From Bacteroidota bacterium (GTDB lineage: Bacteria > Bacteroidota > Bacteroidia > Chitinophagales > UBA2359), in the NCBI GenBank assembly GCA_020631155.1, contig JAHDHV010000012.1:1-38490 (forward strand): 38,490 nucleotides of DNA, in the 5' to 3' direction. Numbering within the stretch: position 1 is the stretch's first letter; each line of letters starts with the position of its first letter. A program made the position numbers and the translations under genes. Under the pieces are notes generated by a model that was given only the letters and a program-made list of their open reading frames with translations, did no database searches and was not told the DNA's origin. Positions 1,529-33,043 of the stretch are shown here, piece by piece.

Positions 1529-3856
1529 ATGAAAAAGGCATTAATCACAGGAATAACAGGGCAAGACGGCGCGTATTTGGCAGAACTACTATTGGAAAAG
1601 GGCTATGAAGTACATGGACTAAAAAGACGTAGTTCTATTTTTAATACCAATCGTATTGATCATCTCTATCAAGACCCTCACGATAAAAACTATCGTTTTC
1701 GATTACATTATGGTGATTTAACCGATTCTTCCAACATTATTCGGGTCATTCAAGAAATACAACCCGACGAAATTTACAATTTGGGGGCAATGTCACATGT
1801 AAAGGTGAGTTTTGAAATGCCTGAGTATGCTGCTAATGTGGATGCTTTAGGAACTTTGAGAATATTGGAAGCAGTTCGATTATTAGGTCTGACTAACAAA
1901 ACAAAAGTTTATCAAGCGTCTACATCCGAACTTTATGGCCTTGTTCAAGAAATTCCACAAAAAGAAACAACGCCTTTTTATCCTCGCTCTCCTTATGCAG
2001 TTGCAAAATTATATGGATACTGGATAACTGTCAATTACCGAGAGGCTTATAACATGTTCGCAGTCAACGGATTGCTCTTCAATCATGAAACAACAACTTC
2101 CTTTATGCCAGTGATTTATAAAATTGGGGAAAATGGATTTGTAAATATTAAATCAATTGGTGAAGTTGTTCAATACCATACAAAACCCAATGAAATAGCA
2201 ATTGATGAATCACAAAAACACTATCAAGAAACAGCTGTTTCAACGGATTTATATGTTTGGGATGCTAGTGGTTGGACAAAAGTTTTGTATGCTTCAGCTT
2301 ATCCACATGATGTAAGTGCGGATAACAAATCTCCTCGTTTTTTGGTTGCAAAAAATGCTGCTTATATGGCCACAGGTAATCATGAATGTATTATGGAAAA
2401 TGAACAAGCAAAAGAGTTTAAAGACATAGTGATTGGAGATAAAGTTAATATTATGGATTATCCAACTATAGAGGAAGAAAACTTTGGTATTAGTGAACAA
2501 GAAGCTGAATTATTAGGTGCAATTATTGGAGATGGATATGTTACTAACAAAAAAGTACAATTAACTAGTAAATCTAAAGAAAAACTGGCTTATTTTGAAG
2601 AAATTTGGCTCTCTATGGATATGAGTAATAAGGTAACTTATTGGCAAACACCTTCTGGTTTTAATAAAAGGGAGATGATATGGCAGATGAGGCTTACAGG
2701 AATTGCAAATAAATGGGCTAAAAAATATGAATTGTATACAATAGCTCAGAAAAAGAGAATACCTTTTCAAATACTCAACTCACCTAAAAACATTCAATTA
2801 AGCTTTTTAAAAGGATATAATTATGCAGATGGTCTAAAGTCAAATCCATGTGTTTATGAATTTAAAAACTTCAAAACCAATTCTGCTACTTTAGCGGCAG
2901 GACTTGTTTTCCTATTGAAAAAAACAACTGGACAAGAGTATAACATTAACTTGGAGTATGTACATAACTTTGGTAAAAATCGAATTTACTACTCCATTAA
3001 TATTTTAAGCGATTCTAAAAAAGGACAAAACCATCGTAATTCTATTCAAAAATATGAATTAGTTAAAGCCGCAATTGCAGAAGGAAAAGGGCAAAGACAA
3101 ACTAATAGGGATACAGGAATAAGTAGAAGTTTTATTAGCAAAGTGGAAAAGGGTTATATTCCTGATGGTAGGCACCCTTTAACAAAAGCCAACAATGTCA
3201 TTAAAAAAATAATAGATTTACCTGATTATGATGGTTGGTTTTATGACATTACAACAGAAAGTGGCACTTTTCATTGTGGTATTGGCCAAGGACATGTTCA
3301 TAATAGTCCACTTCGAGGCGAAACTTTTGTTACCCGAAAAATTACGCGAGCTGTTGCCCGTATTGCATTAGGATTACAAGAAAAATGCTACTTAGGCAAT
3401 TTAGACGCTAAACGAGATTGGGGTCATGCTAAAGACTATGTTCATGCCATGTGGTTGATGTTACAACAGGATAAGCCAGAAGATTATGTCATTGCAACAG
3501 GAGAAGCCCATAGTGTTCGGGATTTTGTGAAATTTGCCTTTCAAGAAGTGGGTATGGAGATTGAATTTAAAGGGGAAGGCATTGATGAAAAGGGAACGGT
3601 TAAGGCTTGTAATAATGAAAAATTCCAATTGCCTATTGGCACAGAAGTAATTGCTGTAGATGAGCGTTATTTTCGTCCAACAGAGGTGGAATTATTGATT
3701 GGAGACCCTTCTAAAGCAAAAAAAGAACTCAATTGGCAACCTGAATACACTTTACAAAGTCTAGTTGCTGAAATGGTACAAGAAGATTTGAAATTATTTG
3801 AAAAAGATGTTTATCTAAAAGAAGCAGGTCATCAAGTATTGAATTATTTTGAGTAG
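1529..3856 (+). CDS. gmd: GDP-mannose 4,6-dehydratase containing an intein
   Basis: The extein halves form a GDP-mannose 4,6-dehydratase, which converts GDP-mannose to GDP-4-keto-6-deoxymannose, the first step to GDP-L-fucose. The N-extein (residues 1-187) has the Rossmann motif GITGQDG (8-14), the STSELYG segment (131-137) and the catalytic YxxxK at Y156/K160. It ends in NHE (185-187). The C-extein resumes at residue 593 with [14 protein letters not shown], so splicing restores the very conserved family motif NHES-P[12 protein letters not shown]. Removing the 405-residue insert leaves 370 residues, close to the roughly 373 of E. coli Gmd. The whole 775-codon frame is uninterrupted, which argues for protein splicing and against a frameshifted pair of genes. 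The next gene, fcl, encodes the following pathway enzyme. Start is the ATG at 1529, where the family N-terminus begins. Confidence 0.96.
2090..3304 (+). other. Intein with LAGLIDADG homing endonuclease inside Gmd
   Basis: In-frame intein at Gmd residues 188-592. Splicing block A starts [12 protein letters not shown] (188-199), block B is ATGNHEC (281-287) with the expected T-x-x-H, and block F is [17 protein letters not shown] (570-586) with Asp573. Block G ends HVHN (589-592), giving the penultimate His591 and terminal Asn592, followed by Ser593 as the +1 nucleophile. Between them lie two LAGLIDADG-type helices, [10 protein letters not shown] (328-337) and [10 protein letters not shown] (426-435), each with an acidic residue, so an active endonuclease is plausible. 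Residues about 505-545 ([19 protein letters not shown] region) look like an extra helix-turn-helix. Junctions are fixed by the Gmd family motif; they place Thr, not the usual Cys or Ser, at intein position 1. Nothing seen suggests degeneration. Confidence 0.93.
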
Positions 3857-7393: not shown

Positions 7394-8626
7394 ATGAATA
7401 AACAAGAGAAAAAAGCAGGTATTGGGCAGTTATTTTATACTTTTTTTTCTATTGGGTGTTTTGCGTTTGGTGGCTTTATGTCCCTTATTGCAGTGGTCAA
7501 TAGTGTGATTGTAGAGCAAAAAAAGTGGTTGAGTAGTGAAAAAATACTGGATGGTATCACCATTGCAAATCTACTGCCTGGTCCAATGGCGGTAAATGTG
7601 GTTAGTTATGTAGGGTATAAAATAGGTGGTTGGAAAGGAGCATTAGCCAGTTTTGTAGGAGTAATTTTACCTTCTTTTGTGTTAATTATTCTGTTTGCCA
7701 TCAACTATGAATATATCAGTCAATCTAGGTGGATTACAGAATTTTTGTTTGGAGTATATCCTGTATTAGCAGCCATCATTTTACACACTTTTGTTAAATT
7801 ATCTAAGAAAATTGTACGACAACAAATTCAGTGGGGGTTAATTTTAGTACCAGCCACTATTTTATTAATAGCTCCTATTTCCTTTCATTTAAGCATTATT
7901 TTCATGTTGATGATAGCTTATGGGATATTGGGAGGCTATTTATATACAGGAGAAGTAACTCAAAAAATTAATACTCAACAACTATTGAAAAGTGGAAAGT
8001 ATTTGTTGATTTTCTTTGCTTTTATATTATTCTTAGCAGGCATTTCATTGACAAATCCATCTTCAATAAATTTAAAGTTATTTTCCTCCTTTGGTAGTTT
8101 AAGTGTAATGTTATTTGGTGGTGGATATGTATTTATTCCAATGTTAGAAGACTTGGTTGTTCACCAAAATCATTGGGTTAGTCAAAAAGAGTTTATTGAT
8201 AGTATTGCCATTGGACAAGTTACACCTGGCCCAATAGTAATTACAGTTTCTTATATTGGCTATAAAGCAGGTGGTTTAATTGGAGCAATATTGTCTACCA
8301 TTGCCATTTTCGGAATACCTGCTACTTTGATGATACAGGTAGGAAATATTTTTCACCTTATTGCTGCCAATGAGAAATATCAATCAGTTATCAAATATTT
8401 GCGTTTTTGCGGAATTGGCTTAATCCTCTATGCAGGTATTTTTTTAATTCTAAAAAATTATCAAATATTACCTGATCACTACACATTACGTACTGTTATT
8501 AGTATAATTCTATTGGGCATTAGCTTTTTAGCACTGCGAAAATGGAATACCAATATATTTCTACTCATCCTTTTAGGTGGAGTGGCACAAATTATTTTTT
8601 ATACAATTATTTTAGCAACAAGATGA
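7394..8626 (+). CDS. chrA: CHR-family (ChrA-like) ion transporter
   Basis: Inner-membrane transporter of the CHR superfamily, in the long form with two homologous CHR halves. Each half shows the family core. The first has FGGFMSLIAVV followed by TIANLLPGPMAVNVVSYVGYKIGGWKGAL. The second has FGGGYVFIPMLEDLVV followed by SIAIGQVTPGPIVITVSYIGYKAGGLIGA. About ten to twelve hydrophobic segments are visible across 410 residues. Characterised members export chromate, and others are linked to sulfate or oxyanion transport. The frame extends to a TTG at 7376, but the ATG at 7394 is the more natural start. Its stop codon overlaps the start of a sulfotransferase gene (ATGA at 8623-8626), which suggests a functional link to sulfur metabolism and not only to metal resistance. 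No chrB-type regulator is present. Confidence 0.9.
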   Translation: MNKQEKKAGIGQLFYTFFSIGCFAFGGFMSLIAVVNSVIVEQKKWLSSEKILDGITIANLLPGPMAVNVVSYVGYKIGGWKGALASFVGVILPSFVLIILFAINYEYISQSRWITEFLFGVYPVLAAIILHTFVKLSKKIVRQQIQWGLILVPATILLIAPISFHLSIIFMLMIAYGILGGYLYTGEVTQKINTQQLLKSGKYLLIFFAFILFLAGISLTNPSSINLKLFSSFGSLSVMLFGGGYVFIPMLEDLVVHQNHWVSQKEFIDSIAIGQVTPGPIVITVSYIGYKAGGLIGAILSTIAIFGIPATLMIQVGNIFHLIAANEKYQSVIKYLRFCGIGLILYAGIFLILKNYQILPDHYTLRTVISIILLGISFLALRKWNTNIFLLILLGGVAQIIFYTIILATR

Positions 8627-9627
8627 AAAGAATTTTTATAGTTGGCACACAACGTAGTGGTTCTAATCTACTACGGATGATGTTGAATAGTCATTCTGAA
8701 CTGTTAGCTCCACACCCGCCTAATGTTCTAAAGCACTTTGTGCCTTTAGAACATATTTATGAACAAAATCCACAACTAGGACAACAAGCCTTGTTTGAAG
8801 ATATTTTACAATTAGTTAAATACAATCCTATTGACTGGGAAAATATTTCTTTTGATGTAGAAGATATTATAGGAAAGCATAAAGTTAATAATGTATTTGA
8901 ATACTTTTTGTACTTAATGGATGCTTATGCTAAACAAGAAGACTGTAATGGATGGGTTTGTAAAAGTACTCATAATTTTATTTATATGGAGGAATTGTTG
9001 AAAGCCGATAAAGGTGTATTCTTTATACATTTATATCGTGATCCTCGTGATGTAACACTCTCTTTTATGAAAGCAGATGTAGGTAATAAACATCCTTATA
9101 GTATTGCCAAAGAATGGTCTGATACACAAGACCACTGTATTCAAACACTTCAAAGCATCCATCCAGATAACTTTTTTACCATTCAATATGAGCAATTAAT
9201 AGAAGAACCACAAGTAATAATGGCGGAATTGTGTAATAAAGTAGGACTTACCTTTGAACCCCAAATGATGGAATTTTATAAATCAAAGAGTGCAAAAGAT
9301 TGTTCTAAAGCAGGTAAACGCTGGGAAAACTTGAAAAATCCTGTTATGTCTAACAATTACAAGAAATATAAAAAAGGATTATCAACAAAGCAAATAAAAA
9401 TGATTGAATATGTTGCTCAAGCTGCCATGAAACATTTAGGTTATGAATTAGACAACTATTTAAATGGATATAGAATAGACCAGAGAGAAATTGAAACTTA
9501 TCAAAATGAGAATAGATTTTTAATAAAAGAAAAAAATCGAAAGGGAGGAAAACAGAAAGAGTTTTTAGCTCAATTAAAGTCTAATTTAGAGTTAAAAGCT
9601 AAGATTTTACAGGAAAAACTAGCCTAA
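8623..9627 (+). CDS. PAPS-dependent sulfotransferase
   Basis: Cytosolic sulfotransferase of 334 residues that should transfer sulfate from PAPS to a hydroxyl group, probably of a sugar. The start at 8623 puts the PAPS-binding P-loop-like motif at the very N-terminus: MKRIFIVGTQRSGSNLLRMM. The 3'-phosphate-binding region is FFIHLYRDPRDVTLSFMKAD, with the conserved Arg and the downstream Ser. The frame is open further upstream inside chrA, but those residues overlap coding sequence and have no family match, so they are excluded. ATG and the chrA stop share the bases ATGA, a classic coupling arrangement. The C-terminal tail is Lys/Glu-rich and probably coiled. It is more distant in sequence from the three tandem sulfotransferases at 24.7-27.4 kb than those are from each other. 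Confidence 0.9.
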   Translation: MKRIFIVGTQRSGSNLLRMMLNSHSELLAPHPPNVLKHFVPLEHIYEQNPQLGQQALFEDILQLVKYNPIDWENISFDVEDIIGKHKVNNVFEYFLYLMDAYAKQEDCNGWVCKSTHNFIYMEELLKADKGVFFIHLYRDPRDVTLSFMKADVGNKHPYSIAKEWSDTQDHCIQTLQSIHPDNFFTIQYEQLIEEPQVIMAELCNKVGLTFEPQMMEFYKSKSAKDCSKAGKRWENLKNPVMSNNYKKYKKGLSTKQIKMIEYVAQAAMKHLGYELDNYLNGYRIDQREIETYQNENRFLIKEKNRKGGKQKEFLAQLKSNLELKAKILQEKLA

Positions 9628-9670
9628 ATATCAATACAAAATTCACAATACATTTTTTAACCCTAACTAA

Positions 9671-11122
9671 ATGAATATGTATTTAAAATTACTGGCTTTC
9701 TACATATCAATATTATTGGTAAATGTTGAATTATTTGCAGAATCAACAACATATTATCCAAAGAAAAGAAAGGAATACTTTATAAAAAAAAGTAAAGCCA
9801 AAACATTAAACATTCCTCAAGATAGTGTTCACTTAAACCCTTATGGAACTGCTCCACTAACTGCCTTAGTTCGTTTTCAAACTAAAAAGAAAGGATATAT
9901 CAAAATTCGAGTAGTTGGACAGGATGGAGAAGCCTCTGATATTACACATCAATTTGATAAGTATGGAACACGACATGAAGTTCCAATTTTAGGTTTGTAT
10001 CCTGATTATGAGAATCAAGTAGAATTAATGTTAGTAAACAAAAAAGGCAAAATAAAGGCTCGACAAACCCTTAACATAAAAACAGATACTTTACCTAAAG
10101 AGTATAACAAACCAGTAGAAATTATTATTAATAAACTTCCCAAAGAGGATAAAGGAGTATATTTAGATATTACATCACGAGTAGCATTTGACAAATTTGG
10201 TAAAATACGTTGGTATTATAAAGGTACTAAAAAAACTCAAGTTTTTAGAAAAACTCTAGATAGGAAAAATCTTTTGTGTTTAAGGGGATATCGCCCTGCT
10301 AAGGTAAGTATTATTTCTCTACTAGGTGAACTATTGGAATCATATCCCTATAAACTAGCTGGTAGACATGATGTAAGAGAATTACCTAGTGGAAATTTTA
10401 TAGTTGCAGCTAGTAAGAAGGGACCAGGTACAGAAGATATGGTTATAGAAATAGATAAAAATACTAAAAAAATTATTAACACATGGGACTTTACCACTAT
10501 TTTAGACACTACAAGAAAACATAATTATGGAGCTAAACAAAAGAATGACTGGCTACATATGAATTGTATTTTTTATGATGAAAAAGATGAAGCATTAATT
10601 ATTTCTGGAAGACATCAAAATGCAGTAGTCAAAATTAATATTAAAACTAATAAAATAAAATGGATATTAGGTCCCCACTATAATTGGAAACCAAAATTCC
10701 GAAAATATTTGCTTAAACCTACTAACTTTAAGCAAAGTGAATTTAATTGGGGGCAACACAGTCCTTTAGTCTTGCCTAATAGTAATATACTTTTATTTAA
10801 TAATGGTAATTTCAGAAGTATAGAAAAAGGAGTAACAAGTCCTACATACAGTAATGTTGTAGAGTACAAAATTGATGAGGAGAAAATGACTGTTGAATTA
10901 GTATGGCAATATGGAAAAGAAAGAGGTATATTTACGAAAGCCAGAGGAGATGTAGATTATCTTGAAGCTTCTGGTAATAGACTTATTTCTTTTATGTCAA
11001 CGTCTCCTACAAAGTCCACACCACTTATTATAGAAATAAATTCTAAAAATGAAGTACTTTTTGAGGCAATATTTGATCGGGATGTCAAACACTATCGAAT
11101 TGAAAAAGTAAACTTTTATTAG
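9671..11122 (+). CDS. Arylsulfate sulfotransferase (ASST)-like secreted protein
   Basis: Predicted exported protein of 483 residues with an N-terminal signal peptide (MNMYLKLLAFYISILLVNVELFAES). The body resembles PAPS-independent aryl-sulfate sulfotransferases, beta-propellers that move sulfate between phenolic compounds in the periplasm. Propeller-like repeats include GRHDVRELPSGNFIVAA (about 231-247), WLHMNCIFYDEKDEALIISGRHQNAVVKIN (about 294-323) and WGQHSPLVLPNSNILLFNNG (about 361-380). These carry His and Arg residues at places comparable to the catalytic His/Arg set known from E. coli AssT, but I cannot align them rigorously. It follows the cytosolic sulfotransferase by 43 bp. Either sulfate transfer outside the cell or a structural role without catalysis is possible. 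The gene is noticeably more AT-rich than the glycan genes at 16-23 kb. Confidence 0.78.
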   Translation: MNMYLKLLAFYISILLVNVELFAESTTYYPKKRKEYFIKKSKAKTLNIPQDSVHLNPYGTAPLTALVRFQTKKKGYIKIRVVGQDGEASDITHQFDKYGTRHEVPILGLYPDYENQVELMLVNKKGKIKARQTLNIKTDTLPKEYNKPVEIIINKLPKEDKGVYLDITSRVAFDKFGKIRWYYKGTKKTQVFRKTLDRKNLLCLRGYRPAKVSIISLLGELLESYPYKLAGRHDVRELPSGNFIVAASKKGPGTEDMVIEIDKNTKKIINTWDFTTILDTTRKHNYGAKQKNDWLHMNCIFYDEKDEALIISGRHQNAVVKINIKTNKIKWILGPHYNWKPKFRKYLLKPTNFKQSEFNWGQHSPLVLPNSNILLFNNGNFRSIEKGVTSPTYSNVVEYKIDEEKMTVELVWQYGKERGIFTKARGDVDYLEASGNRLISFMSTSPTKSTPLIIEINSKNEVLFEAIFDRDVKHYRIEKVNFY

Positions 11123-24693: not shown

Positions 24694-25596
24694 TTGAATC
24701 CATCTGCCATCTCCGACTTATCCAACACTTCTTTTCAATTACATTTTACAGGTATTGGTGCCGAAAAAGCAGGTACAACCAAAATAGCCGATTTGCTTGC
24801 TGCTCATCCTGATATTTGTTTATCAGAACCCAAAGAGGTACATTTTTTTAATGAAAAATTGGGCTATAATCACCAATTTGTAAACAAAAATTATGGTCAA
24901 TCTTTGATGTGGTATGAAAAACATTTTGCCCATGCAAAAAAAGGCCAATTAGTTGGAGAATTTTCAACGGGCTATTTGCCTGATCTTGCAGCTCCTAAAA
25001 ATATTCATGCACTTTTCCCCAATATCAAATTGATTGTATGCCTGAGAAACCCTATTAAGCGCGCCTACTCGCAGTACATTATGTATCGTTTTTATTTTAA
25101 AGCAGAAAATCGAAGTTTTAGCGAAACCATACGGCAAGAGCCTGAATACATCGAAAAAGGGCTATATGCAAAGCAAGTAAAACGATATTTGCAATATTTC
25201 AAACAAGAACAACTACACATTATTGTATTAGACGATTTTAAAAAAAATCCAACTACAACAATTCAACGACTCTATCACTTTTTAGGTGTAAATGATGCCT
25301 TTATTCCGCCCAATTTAACTGAAAAATCTAATGCTGCAAAAGCCATTAAATCGCCTTTTATCTCCAAATTAATGGGCTGGTTTTCTGCGGTAATGGTTGC
25401 TTTAAAATTGTCTGCCGTTTTGGGTTATTTAAAAGACTTAGGGCTTAAAAAATGGGTCATGAAACTAAATACTTCTAAAGTAGAACACCCTCCTATGACA
25501 GCAGAAGATAAAGCCTTTTTGCAACTTCAATTTTTAGATGATATACAAGAATTGGAACAACTGATTAACAAAGACTTATCAGCTTGGAAAAAATGA
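24694..25596 (+). CDS. Sulfotransferase, tandem copy 1
   Basis: PAPS-dependent sulfotransferase of 300 residues in the carbohydrate sulfotransferase group. The 5'-phosphosulfate-binding motif is GIGAEKAGTTKIADLL (20-35). The 3'-phosphate-binding segment is KLIVCLRNPIKRAYSQYIMYRF with the usual Arg and Ser. The only start giving the full domain is TTG at 24694; no ATG lies before the PAPS motif. It follows the GT4 gene by 27 bp and overlaps the next gene by four bases (ATGA). Long runs such as SEPKEVH and KLMGWFSAVMVAL are shared with the next gene, indicating tandem duplication. It probably sulfates a sugar of the locus product in the cytosol. Confidence 0.9.
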   Translation: MNPSAISDLSNTSFQLHFTGIGAEKAGTTKIADLLAAHPDICLSEPKEVHFFNEKLGYNHQFVNKNYGQSLMWYEKHFAHAKKGQLVGEFSTGYLPDLAAPKNIHALFPNIKLIVCLRNPIKRAYSQYIMYRFYFKAENRSFSETIRQEPEYIEKGLYAKQVKRYLQYFKQEQLHIIVLDDFKKNPTTTIQRLYHFLGVNDAFIPPNLTEKSNAAKAIKSPFISKLMGWFSAVMVALKLSAVLGYLKDLGLKKWVMKLNTSKVEHPPMTAEDKAFLQLQFLDDIQELEQLINKDLSAWKK

Positions 25597-26474
25597 GTAA
25601 AAATCCCTCTTTACATATTGATTTTCTAGGTATTGGCGCACCAAAAGCTGGTACGACAAAAATAGCGGATTTTCTAGCAGCACATCCACAGATTTGTTTA
25701 TCAGAACCTAAGGAAGTACACTATTTTAACGAATTTGTTTCCTACATTCATCAAGAAAAAAATCCAAATTATGGGAAGCCTTTAAATTGGTATGCCAAGC
25801 ATTTTGCCCATGCAAAAAAAGGGCAAAAAGTAGGGGAGTTTTGTACAGGTTATTTATACGATAAAAAAGCTCTTTATCAAATAAAAAATACATTTCCTGC
25901 TGTAAAACTAATTGCTTGTATTCGTCAACCTGTGGATCGTGCCTATTCTCAATATATTATGCACAGCTTTTACTTTAAAAAGGAAGTACGTACTTTTGAG
26001 GAAGTTATTCAAGCTGAAAAAGAATACATTGGTAAAAGTTTATTTTATAAGCAGCTAAAGCCTTACTTTGAGCATTTTGATAAAAAGCAAATTTTGGTGA
26101 TCCAATTAAAGGATATTCAGAAGAATCCAAAGGCAGTTGTAAAATGCTTGTATCAATTTTTAGAAGTAGACACTTCTTTTGTGCCTCCTGATTTAATGGA
26201 AAAATCCAATGCTGCAAAAGCGATAAAATTTCCCTTTGTTTCTAAGTTGATGGGTTGGTTTTCTGCGGTGATGGTTGCCTTACGACTGTCATTTGTACTT
26301 CAATGGTTAAAAGAAAAAGGCTTGCGAAAGTGGGTACTAAAATGGAATAGTCAACCGATGGATTACCCAGCAATGAAAACGGAAACAAGGGCTTATTTGA
26401 ATGAAGTGTTTAAGGAAGACATTGAACAATTGGAAGATTTACTAAATATTGATTTATCACATTGGAAATCTTAA
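25593..26474 (+). CDS. Sulfotransferase, tandem copy 2
   Basis: PAPS-dependent sulfotransferase of 293 residues and close paralogue of the preceding gene. PAPS-binding motif GIGAPKAGTTKIADFL (13-28) and 3'-phosphate segment KLIACIRQPVDRAYSQYIMHSF are present. Shared stretches with copy 1 include SEPKEVH-FNE and the C-terminal KSNAAKAIK region followed by SKLMGWFSAVMVAL. The frame continues upstream to TTG 25584, but the ATG at 25593, overlapping the previous stop as ATGA, is the natural coupled start. The two copies differ enough between those runs to suggest they now act on different positions or acceptors, which is inference. Confidence 0.9.
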   Translation: MSKNPSLHIDFLGIGAPKAGTTKIADFLAAHPQICLSEPKEVHYFNEFVSYIHQEKNPNYGKPLNWYAKHFAHAKKGQKVGEFCTGYLYDKKALYQIKNTFPAVKLIACIRQPVDRAYSQYIMHSFYFKKEVRTFEEVIQAEKEYIGKSLFYKQLKPYFEHFDKKQILVIQLKDIQKNPKAVVKCLYQFLEVDTSFVPPDLMEKSNAAKAIKFPFVSKLMGWFSAVMVALRLSFVLQWLKEKGLRKWVLKWNSQPMDYPAMKTETRAYLNEVFKEDIEQLEDLLNIDLSHWKS

Positions 26475-26476
26475 AT

Positions 26477-27379
26477 ATGGATGTTAAAAACCCCAATTTT
26501 CGGGTAGATTTTATAGGTATTGGCGCAGCAAAGTCAGGGACTACATGGCTCGCGAATAACTTAAAACAACACCCTCAAATTTGTTTTTCTCCTACCAAAG
26601 AAATCACCTATTTTAATGAATATCTGGTGCGAATGCCTGATGTTAAAAATCCACATCATAGCAAACCATTAAGCTGGTATCATCATTTTTTTGAGGCTAA
26701 AAAAGCAGGGCAAATCACTGGAGAAATTTCTGTTCAATATTTAATGATGCCGGGTACTGCTCAAAAAATTTACAATTACAATCCAAATGTGAAAATATTA
26801 GTCATTTTGCGCGACCCACCACAACAGGTTTTTTCTTGGTATTTGTACAGTATTCAAAGAGGAGTTGTTAATTATGCCACCTTAGAAGAAGCAATTAAAG
26901 AACGTCCAGACCTATTTGCTAATACCTTTTACTATCAGCAGTTAAAAATTTATTTTGACTTATTTCCAAAAGAAAACATTAAAGTTTTATTTTTTAAATC
27001 TATAAAAGAAAATAATAAAGCTTTTTTTAAAGAAGTATTAGATTTTTTAGGAGTAGATGAATTTTACCCTGAAAGCCTCACAAAAAAATCAAACGAAACA
27101 AAAACACTCAGATTTAAATCACTAACAAGGCTCATTCAAGGAACTCGTCATTTTATCACAAAACACAATTTGGAATTTATCATTCCTCTCCTTCGTTCAA
27201 TAGGAATTGTACAACTAGGTACCTTTATTCGAGATAAGATGAATGTGAAAAAAATGAAGGAAAAACCAAAACTGTCTTCAGAGTTAGAAGCAAAATTAAG
27301 GGCTTTTTATCAGGAGGATATTGAACAATTAGAAAGCTTATTAAATATTGATTTAAATCACTGGAAATCAAAAAAATAA
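26477..27379 (+). CDS. Sulfotransferase, tandem copy 3
   Basis: PAPS-dependent sulfotransferase of 300 residues, more divergent than the first two. The PAPS motif is GIGAAKSGTTWLANNL (13-28), the classic K-x-G-T-T-W form, and the 3'-phosphate segment is KILVILRDPPQQVFSWYLYSIQRG. The C-terminal DIEQLESLLNIDLNHWKS matches the ending of copy 2 (DIEQLEDLLNIDLSHWKS) almost residue for residue, so all three share ancestry. The upstream in-frame TTG at 26462 overlaps the previous gene. The ATG at 26477, two bases after its stop, is chosen. The flippase gene follows after 6 bp. Confidence 0.9.
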   Translation: MDVKNPNFRVDFIGIGAAKSGTTWLANNLKQHPQICFSPTKEITYFNEYLVRMPDVKNPHHSKPLSWYHHFFEAKKAGQITGEISVQYLMMPGTAQKIYNYNPNVKILVILRDPPQQVFSWYLYSIQRGVVNYATLEEAIKERPDLFANTFYYQQLKIYFDLFPKENIKVLFFKSIKENNKAFFKEVLDFLGVDEFYPESLTKKSNETKTLRFKSLTRLIQGTRHFITKHNLEFIIPLLRSIGIVQLGTFIRDKMNVKKMKEKPKLSSELEAKLRAFYQEDIEQLESLLNIDLNHWKSKK

Positions 27380-27385
27380 TACACT

Positions 27386-28633
27386 TTGTCTAAACTAAAA
27401 GATAAACTAATAAAAGAAACTTCTTGGAGCTTTGCATTAAAGGCTTGTACCTTTCCATTATTTTTTATTCTAAACATATTCTTGGCAAGAACATTAGGGG
27501 TTGATAAAATGGGGGAATGGTCTTTTTTCTTTTCCATTTTTACTACCCTTTTGCTGTTGTCCAATTTTGGAATCAAGGCTTCCATGAAATTTATTGCTCA
27601 ACACAATCATACAGATAATTTGATACAAGTCCTAAACGATGCAACAAAATTAAGGGTTATTTGTATCAGTATATTTTCTGCTATCTTGTTGATTTTCAGT
27701 GATCAATTGGCAATTTTAATTAATCGAGTAGAATTTACAAATTTATTTCGCTGGGCAGCTTTGTTATTACTTGTAACTGGTTTTGTAGAGTATTTAAAGC
27801 ATGTTTTTACTGGTTTACACCGAATTAAATACACTTTTATTGTTAACGTATCTGAATTAACTCTTAAAGTAGTATTTGTTATATTATTATTAACATGGAG
27901 TTTAGATTTGAAAAACATCATTTGGGCCTTTACCTTAGCAGTGACAATTAGCGTTTTGGCTGGTTTTTATTTATTATACAAAAATTTTTATACTAAAGAA
28001 AATACATCTACACAAAAATATTTTAAAGAAATTTTTGATTATAGTATTCCGTTATTTTTGGTAAGCATTGGTTTTTCTATTGCGACAGAAGTGGATACTA
28101 TCATGTTAGGTTTATTGTCAACAGATGCTGAAGTTGGCGTTTATGCCATTGCCAAACAGATAGTAGTGAAGTTACCTCATTTTAGTTACGCAGTTGCAAT
28201 GGGTACAATGCCTGTATTTGCAAAAATAACAATGGATAATCAATTGAAATTAAAGCGATTATTTTTTAGATTACTAGGCGTTAATGCATTGGTTTTTATT
28301 CCTGTTGTATTGGGAATTTTGTTTTTAGGACCTTATTTAATTCCTCTGATTTATGGAGCCGAATATGCTGCTGCTGTACTTCCTTTACAAATTTTGACTG
28401 TTTATTTGTTGGTTTTTACATTTACTGTTTTCTTTAATCAACTCTTAGATTATCAAGGACTTGCAAAGATAAGAGCCATTAATATTTTTATTTCTACGAC
28501 ATTAAATATTGTGTTAAATTATTACTTGATTCCTAAATATGGGGCAGTTGGGGCTGCTATTTCTACGTCAATTTCTTATTTTCCATATTTGATTTTAAAT
28601 GCTTGGGAAGCTCGAAAACTCTTTCCATATTAA
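27386..28633 (+). CDS. wzx: Wzx-type polysaccharide flippase
   Basis: Integral membrane protein of 415 residues with about twelve hydrophobic segments, of the polysaccharide transporter (RfbX/Wzx, MOP superfamily) group that flips undecaprenyl-linked repeat units across the inner membrane. Family-like features are the N-terminal NIFLARTLGVDKMGEWSFFFSIF (about 31-53), EVDTIMLGLLSTDAEVGVYAIA in the middle, and the C-terminal LNYYLIPKYGAVGAAISTSISYF. The start is TTG at 27386, 6 bp after the last sulfotransferase; the first residues SKLKDKLIKETSW are typical of flippase N-termini. It is the last gene of the GT4-sulfotransferase operon and lies immediately left of the replication origin. No Wzy polymerase was recognised nearby. 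Confidence 0.9.
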   Translation: MSKLKDKLIKETSWSFALKACTFPLFFILNIFLARTLGVDKMGEWSFFFSIFTTLLLLSNFGIKASMKFIAQHNHTDNLIQVLNDATKLRVICISIFSAILLIFSDQLAILINRVEFTNLFRWAALLLLVTGFVEYLKHVFTGLHRIKYTFIVNVSELTLKVVFVILLLTWSLDLKNIIWAFTLAVTISVLAGFYLLYKNFYTKENTSTQKYFKEIFDYSIPLFLVSIGFSIATEVDTIMLGLLSTDAEVGVYAIAKQIVVKLPHFSYAVAMGTMPVFAKITMDNQLKLKRLFFRLLGVNALVFIPVVLGILFLGPYLIPLIYGAEYAAAVLPLQILTVYLLVFTFTVFFNQLLDYQGLAKIRAINIFISTTLNIVLNYYLIPKYGAVGAAISTSISYFPYLILNAWEARKLFPY

Positions 28634-29096
28634 AGCGATTTTAAGGAGCTCTAAGCGTCTTTTTTTATTTTACACAAAAGGAATTGTCTTTTTTAAAAAA
28701 AGTTGTCTTAGAGTGTTTTAAATGGGTCTGATGATGAAATTGTAAGTTATGCTTTATTAGCTTTTATACCGAGTTCTGTTTTTGTGAACTATTAAAGGTA
28801 AGCATTTGATAGTGAATAGATGTATTTGAAGTATCAAAAATTTGTGCTTTTAATTGTATTAAAGAATTGACTATCAGATATTTAATTGCTAAAAGGTAAG
28901 TATTTGATAGTTGATGAATAATGGTGATTAGTGGTGTTTGTTTTCAGACTTAGAGTGACGAAATACAAAAACACATACATTGAGCAATGATTATCAATTT
29001 AAAATACAGATAAATAAAAATAATTGGAAATAAAAAAATATATCTTGGTTTGTAAACACCTAACTTTCGTTTTTCGTTTTCATGTTTGGTTTTGGC

Positions 29097-29166
29097 TTAT
29101 CCACAGGCCAAACAAATTTTAAATATTTTTCCATCAAAAACGACATTCATTTCAAAGTTATCCACA
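29097..29166 (+). promoter_or_regulatory. Pair of perfect DnaA boxes
   Basis: TTATCCACA occurs at 29097-29105 and again at 29158-29166, both matching the consensus DnaA box. An inverted perfect copy (TGTGGATAA) lies at 29433-29441 and a one-mismatch copy (AGTGGATAA) at 29406-29414, both inside the iteron block. They flank AT-rich DNA suitable for strand opening. Confidence 0.85.
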
Positions 29167-29289
29167 TATTTTTTCTAATTTTTTTCCCTAAAAACTCAAC
29201 ATTAAAAGATCGAGTAGTTTTAATAACTCTTTTAATTCGAGTATTTTAGAGGCTTGTAAAGCCTATGATTATCATTGTGTTACAACGGT

Positions 29290-29699
29290 TTTGGTAAGAG
29301 CTTGATAGTCAGAAAGGTAAGTAACTGATACTGAAAGGTAAGTAATGGGGAGTTATTTTCTTTCGAAAAACGCATTAAAAGGTAAGTATTTGATAGTCAT
29401 TGGTAAGTGGATAAAAACATACTTACCTTCAATGTGGATAAGTTGCTAAAGGTAAGTGTTTGATAGTCAAAAGATAAGTATTTGATAGTAAGAGAACAAA
29501 CTTTAAATTTCGCTTTTATACCCAATAATTTATAGTAAAGGTAAGTATTTGATAGTGGGAATGTAATATCTTCTGTTTGTACAGAAAGGTAAGTATTTGA
29601 TAGTAGAGGAATAATATTTTGTTGTTGTGTAAAAGGTAAGTATTTGATAGTGGGAATGTAAAATTTTCTGTTTGTACAGAAAGGTAAGTAATTGATAGT
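29290..29699 (+). repeat. Main iteron block
   Basis: Direct repeats of the 20-mer AAAGGTAAGTATTTGATAGT. Exact copies start at 29378, 29537, 29585 and 29632 (also at 28892 outside the block). Copies with one change start at 29448, 29470 and 29680 (also 28794). More divergent copies start at 29290 and 29313, and a truncated one at 29334. All point towards rep. Spacing varies from about 21 to 70 bp. A longer unit of roughly 48 bp (iteron plus GGGAATGTAA spacer plus TTTGTACAG) recurs in the right half. Confidence 0.93.
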
Positions 29700-29778
29700 A
29701 AAAGTGTAAAATTTTCTGTCATTGTTATTAGATGTTATTGGACGAATGTGTTATTTTTTTACAATCATTTTTTTCTAA

Positions 29779-29825
29779 AAAAAGGTAAGTATCTTAGAAA
29801 TAGTTTACCTTTTTCTCTAACTTTG
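29779..29825 (+). promoter_or_regulatory. rep promoter with inverted half-iteron operator
   Basis: AAAAAGGTAA (29779-29788) and TTACCTTTTT (29805-29814) are perfect 10-bp inverted arms built from the first half of the iteron. They directly precede a -7 type box TAACTTTG (29818-29825), seven bases before the rep ATG. Rep proteins of this class typically bind such inverted repeats as dimers to repress their own gene. Confidence 0.7.
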
Positions 29826-29832
29826 TTGTGTT

Positions 29833-30729
29833 ATGGAAAAAAATGATCATCAAATAGCTCAAGTTAGCAATGCATTAATTGAATCTCGACATGAACTAAC
29901 AACACTACAAAAAAAGATCATGTTATTTTTGATTTCGAGGGTCTCTAAAAGTGATAAACCCTTTCAACAATATAGTCTGAAGATTTCGGAGTTTGCAGAT
30001 ACCTCAAATGTTGTAAGTCCTCAGTTGTACAGCCGAATTAAACAGTCTACTGCGGAATTGCTGATGAAAGTATATGAAATACAGGAAACAGACGGTATTT
30101 TGCAGGTTGGTATGTTATCAAGTGCAAAGTATTTAGATGGTAAGGGGACAGTTCAAATTCGCTTTGATCCTGCTTTGATGCCTTATATTTTGGCTTTGAA
30201 GGAGCGTTTTACTTTTGTTCCGCTTCGGCATGTTTTGGGTTTTCGCTCTATACATTCTATCCGAGTATATGAAATGTTGCGTCAATTTAGAGGACCTGGG
30301 TATTTTGTCATTAGTATTTATGATTTAAAATATCGCTTATGCGTTGAAAATAAATATGTAAAATACGCTGCCTTTAAAAAATATGTGCTTTTACAAGCGC
30401 AAAAAGAATTAAAAGGTACAGATTGTGAGTTTACATTCGAGGAATTTAAAAAAGGGAGGCGTGTAGATCGGATTAAATTTTCGATTGTATCTCCTAAAAA
30501 AATTGAGTTAAGTAAAAAGGAAACAAAACTGTTGAATAAATTGGTGAAAGAATATCAATTAACATTGCCACAAGCGCGAAAAATCATTTTACACCTCTCT
30601 CCTACCATCATTCAACAAACTTTATATGAAATTCAAACGGCGAAAGTAAACAATGTCATCAAAACAAATTTGGGGGCTTTTACAGTAGGTGTTTTTAAGA
30701 AAAAATTTGAATGGTTGTATGAAAATTGA
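29833..30729 (+). CDS. Rep_3 family replication initiator
   Basis: Plasmid-type replication initiation protein of 298 residues (Rep_3/RepB superfamily), with two winged-helix domains that bind iterons as a monomer and the operator as a dimer. The N-terminal signature VSNALIESRHELTTLQKKIMLFLISRV (12-38) is the usual opening of the family. Later parts include VQIRFDPALMPYILALKERFTFVPLRHVLGFRSIHSIRVYEMLRQF (about 112-157), the core of the first winged helix and its junction. The second domain follows to about 230, and a basic C-terminal extension runs to 298. The upstream iterons, DnaA boxes and operator support the call strongly. The gene is intact. It lies between a flippase and ugd, so it separates two parts of the glycan gene set. 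No ParA/ParB partition genes are visible here. Confidence 0.93.
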   Translation: MEKNDHQIAQVSNALIESRHELTTLQKKIMLFLISRVSKSDKPFQQYSLKISEFADTSNVVSPQLYSRIKQSTAELLMKVYEIQETDGILQVGMLSSAKYLDGKGTVQIRFDPALMPYILALKERFTFVPLRHVLGFRSIHSIRVYEMLRQFRGPGYFVISIYDLKYRLCVENKYVKYAAFKKYVLLQAQKELKGTDCEFTFEEFKKGRRVDRIKFSIVSPKKIELSKKETKLLNKLVKEYQLTLPQARKIILHLSPTIIQQTLYEIQTAKVNNVIKTNLGAFTVGVFKKKFEWLYEN

Positions 30730-32459: not shown

Positions 32460-32714
32460 ATGTATACTATGACAGTAACTGTAAATAAATGGGGTAATAA
32501 TTTAGGTATTCAATTTCCTAAAGTAATTGCTGAAGCTGCCGATTTGTCCGCAGGTAAAAAGTTATTAATTACTATAGATGGAACAGGGAAACTTATTTTA
32601 CAAGTAGAAGAAGACAATATAACCCTTGATGATTTGATTAAAGGAGTGACACCAGAAAATAGACATGATGTTTTTATTAATAAAACAGTAGGTAAAGAAG
32701 GATGGAACTATTGA
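32460..32714 (+). CDS. mazE: MazE-like (AbrB-fold) antitoxin
   Basis: Small protein of 84 residues. The first half, VTVNKWGNNLGIQFPKVIAEAADLSAGKKLLITI (about 6-39), is a swapped-hairpin AbrB/MazE DNA-binding domain; the W-G-N-x-L-x-x-x-x-P pattern is diagnostic. The second half (about 45-84), with DNITLDDLIKGVTPENRHDVF, is the flexible tail that wraps and neutralises the MazF toxin. The ATG at 32460 is used; a second ATG at 32469 is also possible. The reading frame overlaps the toxin start by 13 bases, a coupling that keeps antitoxin ahead of toxin. A perfect palindrome upstream is the probable binding site for autorepression. Confidence 0.9.
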   Translation: MYTMTVTVNKWGNNLGIQFPKVIAEAADLSAGKKLLITIDGTGKLILQVEEDNITLDDLIKGVTPENRHDVFINKTVGKEGWNY

Positions 32715-33043
32715 CAGAAGCTCCCAAACGAGGAGACATTATTTGGTTGGATTTTGACCCCAAAAAAGGACGAGAACAAAAAGGCCATCGCCCTGCCTTG
32801 GTCTTATCACATTTCAAACATAATAAAGCGTTTCAATTAGCCATTGTAACACCTATTACAAGACAAGTAAAAGGCTTTGGTATAGAAGTTCCCTTACCAA
32901 ACAACTGTTCATTGGAAGGTGTCATTTTAAGTAATCAGGTACACACAATTGACTGGAAAGTGCGTAAGGCTGCCTATGCAGGACAGGTAGACAGTACAAC
33001 TTTGGATGCTGTTATAAGGCGCATCAATATTTTGATTCAGTAA
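32702..33043 (+). CDS. mazF: MazF/PemK-family toxin
   Basis: Endoribonuclease toxin of 113 residues, cutting mRNA at short single-stranded motifs when free of antitoxin. Family marks are RGDIIWLDFDPKKGREQKGHRPALVLSH (about 10-37), with the R-G-D-I/V start and the G-H/R-R-P-A-L-V-L core, then AIVTPITR, and GVILSNQVHTIDWKVRKAAYAG near the end. The gene is complete and starts inside mazE. The next gene converges on it from the minus strand with 13 bp between the stops. Location within about 2 kb of the rep gene suggests an addiction role for the replicon. Confidence 0.92.
   Translation: MELLTEAPKRGDIIWLDFDPKKGREQKGHRPALVLSHFKHNKAFQLAIVTPITRQVKGFGIEVPLPNNCSLEGVILSNQVHTIDWKVRKAAYAGQVDSTTLDAVIRRINILIQ

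Follow-up and report, generated by a model that had tools for sequence, protein, structure and literature searches.

The window, i.e., the whole stretch of DNA that we analyzed, is one entire contig (C293; 38,490 bp) of an assembly (MAG) of 6.48 Mb in 666 contigs. Its open reading frames start with a transposase gene, followed by gmd with an intein-like insert, an fcl-like epimerase gene, methyltransferase and glycosyltransferase genes, and a chromate transporter gene. The middle part encodes a sulfotransferase, an arylsulfotransferase, a PhoD-like protein, glycosyltransferases, an epimerase, three sulfotransferases, and a flippase, after which come the origin and rep. To the right of rep are ugd, a mazEF-like pair, and, on the minus strand, genes for YfhO-like and TPR membrane proteins. 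The origin thus sits between the flippase gene and ugd, as stated in the original prediction (Table 1). The window's ugd is the only close copy within the bin, and a homologue of at least 64% identity is present in 17 of the 20 genomes of our family search (the window's own genome counted). The PF04014 match of the mazE-type gene falls just below its cutoff.

Table 1. Positions of the replication features and the genes surrounding them in the window
Feature	Position	Strand	Details
Three sulfotransferase genes of the glycan set	24694..27379	+	PF00685/PF13469
Wzx-type flippase gene, left neighbor of origin/rep	27386..28633	+	PF01943, E = 1.3e-33
Isolated distal iteron	28794..28813	+	1 mismatch
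Isolated distal iteron	28892..28911	+	Perfect
AT-rich stretch, candidate unwinding element (putative role)	28970..29060		21% GC; 12% GC over 60 bp from 28986
DnaA box	29097..29105	+	TTATCCACA
DnaA box	29158..29166	+	TTATCCACA
Main iteron array, dense	29290..29699	+	10 copies of AAAGGTAAGTATTTGATAGT; spacings of 21-23, 44-48, and 67-70 bp
DnaA box within the iteron array	29433..29441	-	Reads TGTGGATAA on the + strand
Inverted half-iterons, candidate autoregulatory operator (putative role)	29781..29812		AAAGGTAA (29781-29788) opposed to TTACCTTT (29805-29812)
Bacteroidota-like -7 box between the half-iteron operator and the rep ATG	29818..29825	+	TAACTTTG
rep, Rep_3 replication initiator	29833..30729	+	298 aa, WH1+WH2; PF01051, PF21205, 1REP match
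ugd, UDP-glucose 6-dehydrogenase gene, right neighbor of rep	30879 (ATG)..32237	+
mazE/mazF-type toxin-antitoxin pair, between ugd and the YfhO-like gene	32460..33043	+	PF02452, E = 3.4e-24; PF04014, E = 5.6e-5

The DDE transposase gene occupies the extreme start of the contig (positions 129 to 1373, plus strand) and is the likely cause of the contig break. The gmd gene (GDP-mannose 4,6-dehydratase; 1529 to 3856, plus strand) is interrupted in frame by an intein-like insert that matches LAGLIDADG_3 (E = 2.7e-5); its junctions appear to have Thr at position 1 and to end in HN. If true, both the presence of an intein in a sugar-nucleotide enzyme and its Thr1 would be uncommon. Four sulfotransferase genes and the arylsulfotransferase gene belong to one glycan set (8542 to 11122 and 24694 to 27379).

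Upstream of rep, about 11 to 12 iterons with the consensus AAAGGTAAGTATTTGATAGT are spread over positions 28,794 to 29,699, starting on the plus strand at 28794, 28892, 29290, 29313, 29334, 29378, 29448, 29470, 29537, 29585, 29632, and 29680 (the copies at 29290 and 29334 are weak). Five of them match the 20-bp consensus perfectly and four deviate from it at one position, which bears out the roughly ten near-consensus 20-bp copies originally predicted. When up to six mismatches were allowed, the region 5′ of rep held 15 matches, compared to a mean of 0.52 and a maximum of 4 in dinucleotide-shuffled copies. Across the whole bin, the 17-bp iteron core (at most one mismatch) is confined to C293. 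Two isolated iterons stand ∼400 to 500 bp upstream of the dense array. All three predicted perfect DnaA boxes are present, whereas ∼0.02 would be expected, and the proposed operator of inverted half-iterons exists as a sequence between the array and rep. The motif TAACTTTG, which we take to be a match to the Bacteroidota −7 promoter element TAnnTTTG, belongs to a type with about 30 matches on the plus strand of the whole window. As far as the sequence can tell, the iterons, DnaA boxes, AT-rich stretch, operator, and Rep_3 gene together support the prediction of a textbook plasmid-type origin.

The initiator is intact, again as predicted: a single ORF carries both Rep_3 winged-helix domains above the Pfam cutoff, PF01051 (Rep3_N) at residues 11 to 149 (112 bits) and PF21205 (Rep3_C) at residues 161 to 218 (49 bits). 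The closest solved structure is the F-plasmid-type RepE, 1REP (E = 2.8e-11 over residues 3 to 218 [by phmmer against the PDB]), and the window's copy is the sole Rep_3 gene in the bin. A close relative of Rep was not found among 72,556 plasmid records; 4,550 of them match, all with less than 60% identity, and the best listed reach 33 to 40%. A viral or phage origin of Rep was also considered and rejected. A single-sequence scan of viral contigs gave no relative, an alignment scan yielded just generic Rep_3 matches of 27 to 36%, and the five matching phage records were all below 28% identity.

To place Rep among its relatives, we scanned one genome per species and found nine MAGs, all Saprospiraceae, with a Rep of ∼300 aa that is 43 to 46% identical to that of the window. 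As the closest named relatives of Rep are from Saprospiraceae, the window's host most likely belongs to this family or one near it. Each of these genomes has one copy of this short Rep (split over two contigs in one case), and several also hold Rep_3 genes that are longer and more distantly related. One further genome, G618, came from a wider family search, for a total of ∼10 family genomes with a related Rep. Repeats precede rep in all nine of the Saprospiraceae relatives checked (4 to 10 copies, versus 1 to 3 in shuffles); nearly all checked family genomes with a related Rep have an iteron array, and most have parA upstream. In the loci tallied, parA is near rep in seven of eight relatives. 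Purifying selection on Rep is strong in the relatives, judging by the one pair whose dS is unsaturated (dN/dS = 0.025).

Some Rep_3 genes outside the short-Rep set are unusual. G618 has three Rep_3 genes of the wider group (on contigs C56 and C372), two of which share a contig and flank a parA and small-gene pair, possibly a fused or mosaic replicon. Rep_3 genes with three internal TGA codons occur in G577 (near position 573,082 of C1, a 577-kb contig; locus L171) and G510 (near position 32,031 of C45, a 116-kb contig; locus L174). These may be pseudogenes after integration or may belong to a TGA-reading host.

A polysaccharide flippase gene is near rep in six of nine loci (window counted). 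Measured as a PF01943 match within 3 kb of rep, the linkage holds in 6 of 10 genomes, against an expectation of 0.5 to 1.1% per genome. Five of these six form one sub-clade, and the counts are therefore nonindependent and the naive probability of 3e-11 is not to be taken literally; the flippases adjoining rep are also not all orthologous. In the short-Rep set, PF13440 was found in five of eight loci besides the window. The same tally for nine longer Rep_3 loci, used as a control, returned ParA and resolvases and no flippase among the listed families (those with at least two members); the control loci show at most one flippase. Since the loci are few, the contrast is suggestive rather than strong. 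A chance neighborhood of rep and flippase is disfavored by both the flippase counts and the control loci.

Some relatives share a gene order around rep with one another. Five genomes (G486, G489, G490, G491, and G492) have the order deacetylase (minus strand)-flippase-ParA-small gene-rep, with the qualification that the small plus-strand gene of G486 is not among its listed genes. By eye, the relatives' small gene between ParA and rep has the look of a ribbon-helix-helix ParB, for which Pfam gave no confirmation. Beyond rep, the contig of G489 (50.7 kb) carries an SLBB/Wza-type exporter, a UDP-sugar dehydrogenase, CysD/CysN-like sulfate-activation genes, flippases, and glycosyltransferases. 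The rep contig of G484 has a locus similar to that of G489, two sulfotransferases, an APS kinase, and metH, and both contigs consist mostly of sulfated-polysaccharide loci. The sulfotransferases of the window, together with the sulfate-activation and sulfotransferase genes on the relatives' rep contigs, suggest that the glycan set makes a sulfated surface glycan. That this Rep clade has polysaccharide genes as neighbors in several relatives speaks against one chance integration event, and it is suggestive of one Rep clade being recurrently linked with sulfated-glycan loci rather than of a one-off arrangement. Our limited literature search found no prior report of this linkage in Saprospiraceae, which may still have been reported.

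When the bin was searched with the relatives' ParA, a 213-aa ParA was found on another contig, C381. Its gene is preceded by an AT-rich array of 42-bp tandem repeats, which is partly a run of N, and followed by a small basic gene of 106 aa (locus L229, positions 8650 to 10626). The surroundings include MBOAT acyltransferases, sulfatases, a UDP-sugar epimerase, a glycosyltransferase, and a PhoD-like protein that shares 46% identity with the one in the window. Two pairs of an MBOAT gene and its partner near parA are apparently duplicated. The cassette resembles a partition locus whose replicon bears sugar genes as well, and it is possibly the one missing from the replicon of C293. In the sample of contigs compared, no shared contig ends link C293 to C381 or to 26 other bin contigs. 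The original prediction had proposed looking for parAB or mobilization genes; the bin does hold this plasmid-type, parAB-like cassette, but the scanned ORFs of the window include no parA, relaxase, or T4SS gene. None of the genes found supports the accompanying suggestion that the surface-sugar genes could be mobile; dosage control of these genes, the other suggestion, is possible. As for circularity, C293 shows no terminal overlap and dnaA is on a different contig, C139, in an assembly that is fragmented.

Plasmids and chromids that replicate from iteron origins form a well-established class (PMC6090056). The origin belongs to the Rep_3/iteron class by its sequence and should work like one. 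By analogy with well-studied iteron plasmids, Rep monomers would occupy the iterons next to DnaA and unwind the AT-rich stretch, and Rep dimers would bind the inverted half-iterons and repress rep. Pairing (coupling) of Rep-bound iterons or origins would limit initiation and cap the copy number. The parA and small-gene cassette on C381 may segregate the replicon of C293.

As to where the module resides, metH has a single match per genome where found. In G484, rep lies ∼9 kb from this match on the same contig, which puts a chromid or a location in the chromosome on a par with a small plasmid; in G489, the rep contig begins within a metH homologue (a fragment). In G485, G487, and G488, metH adjoins the same EPS genes, and the contigs concerned lack rep. 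Furthermore, two genes border the ParA pair in G484, and their homologues in G485 are directly adjacent, with no ParA in between. Either the module has moved or the region has been rearranged, which fits a chromid with core genes and also fits a module in the main chromosome. The rep contig of G485 (67.6 kb) additionally carries PEP carboxykinase, RtcB, and CoA transferase genes. The window itself has no core genes, and the tetranucleotide composition of its 5-kb pieces is within the range of the bin. A switch in GC skew or gene strand at rep was rejected as a sign of an active origin, as it was seen in G484 (from −0.15 to +0.12), where operon direction can explain it, and was absent in the window and most relatives.

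We favor, with a probability of roughly 55%, the reading that the window contains the complete, selectively maintained Rep_3/iteron origin of a low-copy secondary replicon, either a large plasmid or a chromid, on which genes for sulfated surface polysaccharides are located. The long conservation of Rep, the repeats, and ParA implies that the origin works, which tips the balance toward a secondary replicon. A serious contender, to which we give distinctly less than even odds, places the module in the main chromosome: a plasmid would have integrated, or a rep-ori-par module would have been acquired, in the polysaccharide region and been kept as a second, regulated or silent origin. This would account for the short distance between rep and the single-copy metH in G484, for the same metH-EPS neighborhood without rep in G485 and G488, for the three additional genes on the G485 rep contig, and for the bin-like composition of the window. 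A chromid, however, may likewise hold core genes and have a chromosome-like composition, and unused origins would be expected to decay, yet Rep, iterons, and ParA are all kept and Rep is under selection. A more far-reaching reading, to which we also give distinctly less than even odds, is that certain Saprospiraceae possess an iteron chromid (or a second working origin in the main chromosome) whose Rep_3-ParAB module is stably linked to the sulfated-exopolysaccharide locus and metH.

It is improbable that the contig is a chimeric assembly or a misbinned plasmid fragment and the adjacency of rep and glycan genes partly an artifact. The MAG is fragmented, a transposase gene lies at the contig start, and the tetranucleotide composition of the 2.2-kb replicon segment is unusual, with just 4% of genome pieces deviating as strongly, but the rest of C293 matches the bin, the intergenic spacing on either side of the segment is ordinary, and the same sort of adjacency recurs in separately assembled MAGs. 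Even less credible is a small mobile plasmid that shuttles glycan genes between strains; the iteron origin, the mazEF-type pair, and the transposase would suit it, but the ORFs scanned in the window include no relaxase, T4SS, or parA gene, and the plasmid records hold no close relative of Rep.

The origin shares its WH1-WH2 initiator, iterons, DnaA boxes, and inverted half-iteron operator with Rep_3/RepB-type iteron plasmids (the F mini-replicon with RepE, pPS10 with RepA, and Runella pRUNSL01). In these plasmids, par genes are near rep, as in the window's relatives; the window differs in having no par adjoining rep, in the low identity of its Rep to even the best listed plasmid records, and in having its origin embedded in a glycan locus. 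For the complete Bacteroidota relatives pRUNSL01 and Spirosoma oryzicola unnamed7, the gene table, which is incomplete, lists no locus for glycan synthesis within 15 kb of rep. As cited in PMC10090131, Michael et al. (2016) described roseobacter biofilm plasmids, extrachromosomal replicons with polysaccharide biosynthesis genes. These resemble the window in combining such genes with replicon functions. They come from another phylum and are closed molecules, whereas the window is a contig that is not closed, and their replicon types differ from that of the window. A known Bacteroidota example of a second chromosome with a plasmid-type initiator is chromosome II of Flammeovirga, which is enriched in carbohydrate genes (PMC8653839). 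Iteron chromids and second chromosomes such as Vibrio chromosome 2 and Flammeovirga chromosome II combine a plasmid-type initiator and ParAB with a chromosome-like composition (PMC8653839, PMC6090056), whereas the window has no core gene and is not closed. Flammeovirga chromosome II is, moreover, noted for polysaccharide degradation, whereas the genes of the window are for synthesis.

Saprospiraceae are abundant in wastewater treatment plants (PMC9304909). If the chromid or second-origin reading is true, their genes for sulfated-coat synthesis would replicate under plasmid-type control. Should a secondary replicon encode the synthesis of these sulfated coat polysaccharides, the coat type could be acquired, lost, or changed in dosage as a single unit, in the manner of the roseobacter biofilm plasmids. 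To our knowledge, genetic tools for Saprospiraceae are few, and the replicon module is a candidate origin for building them.
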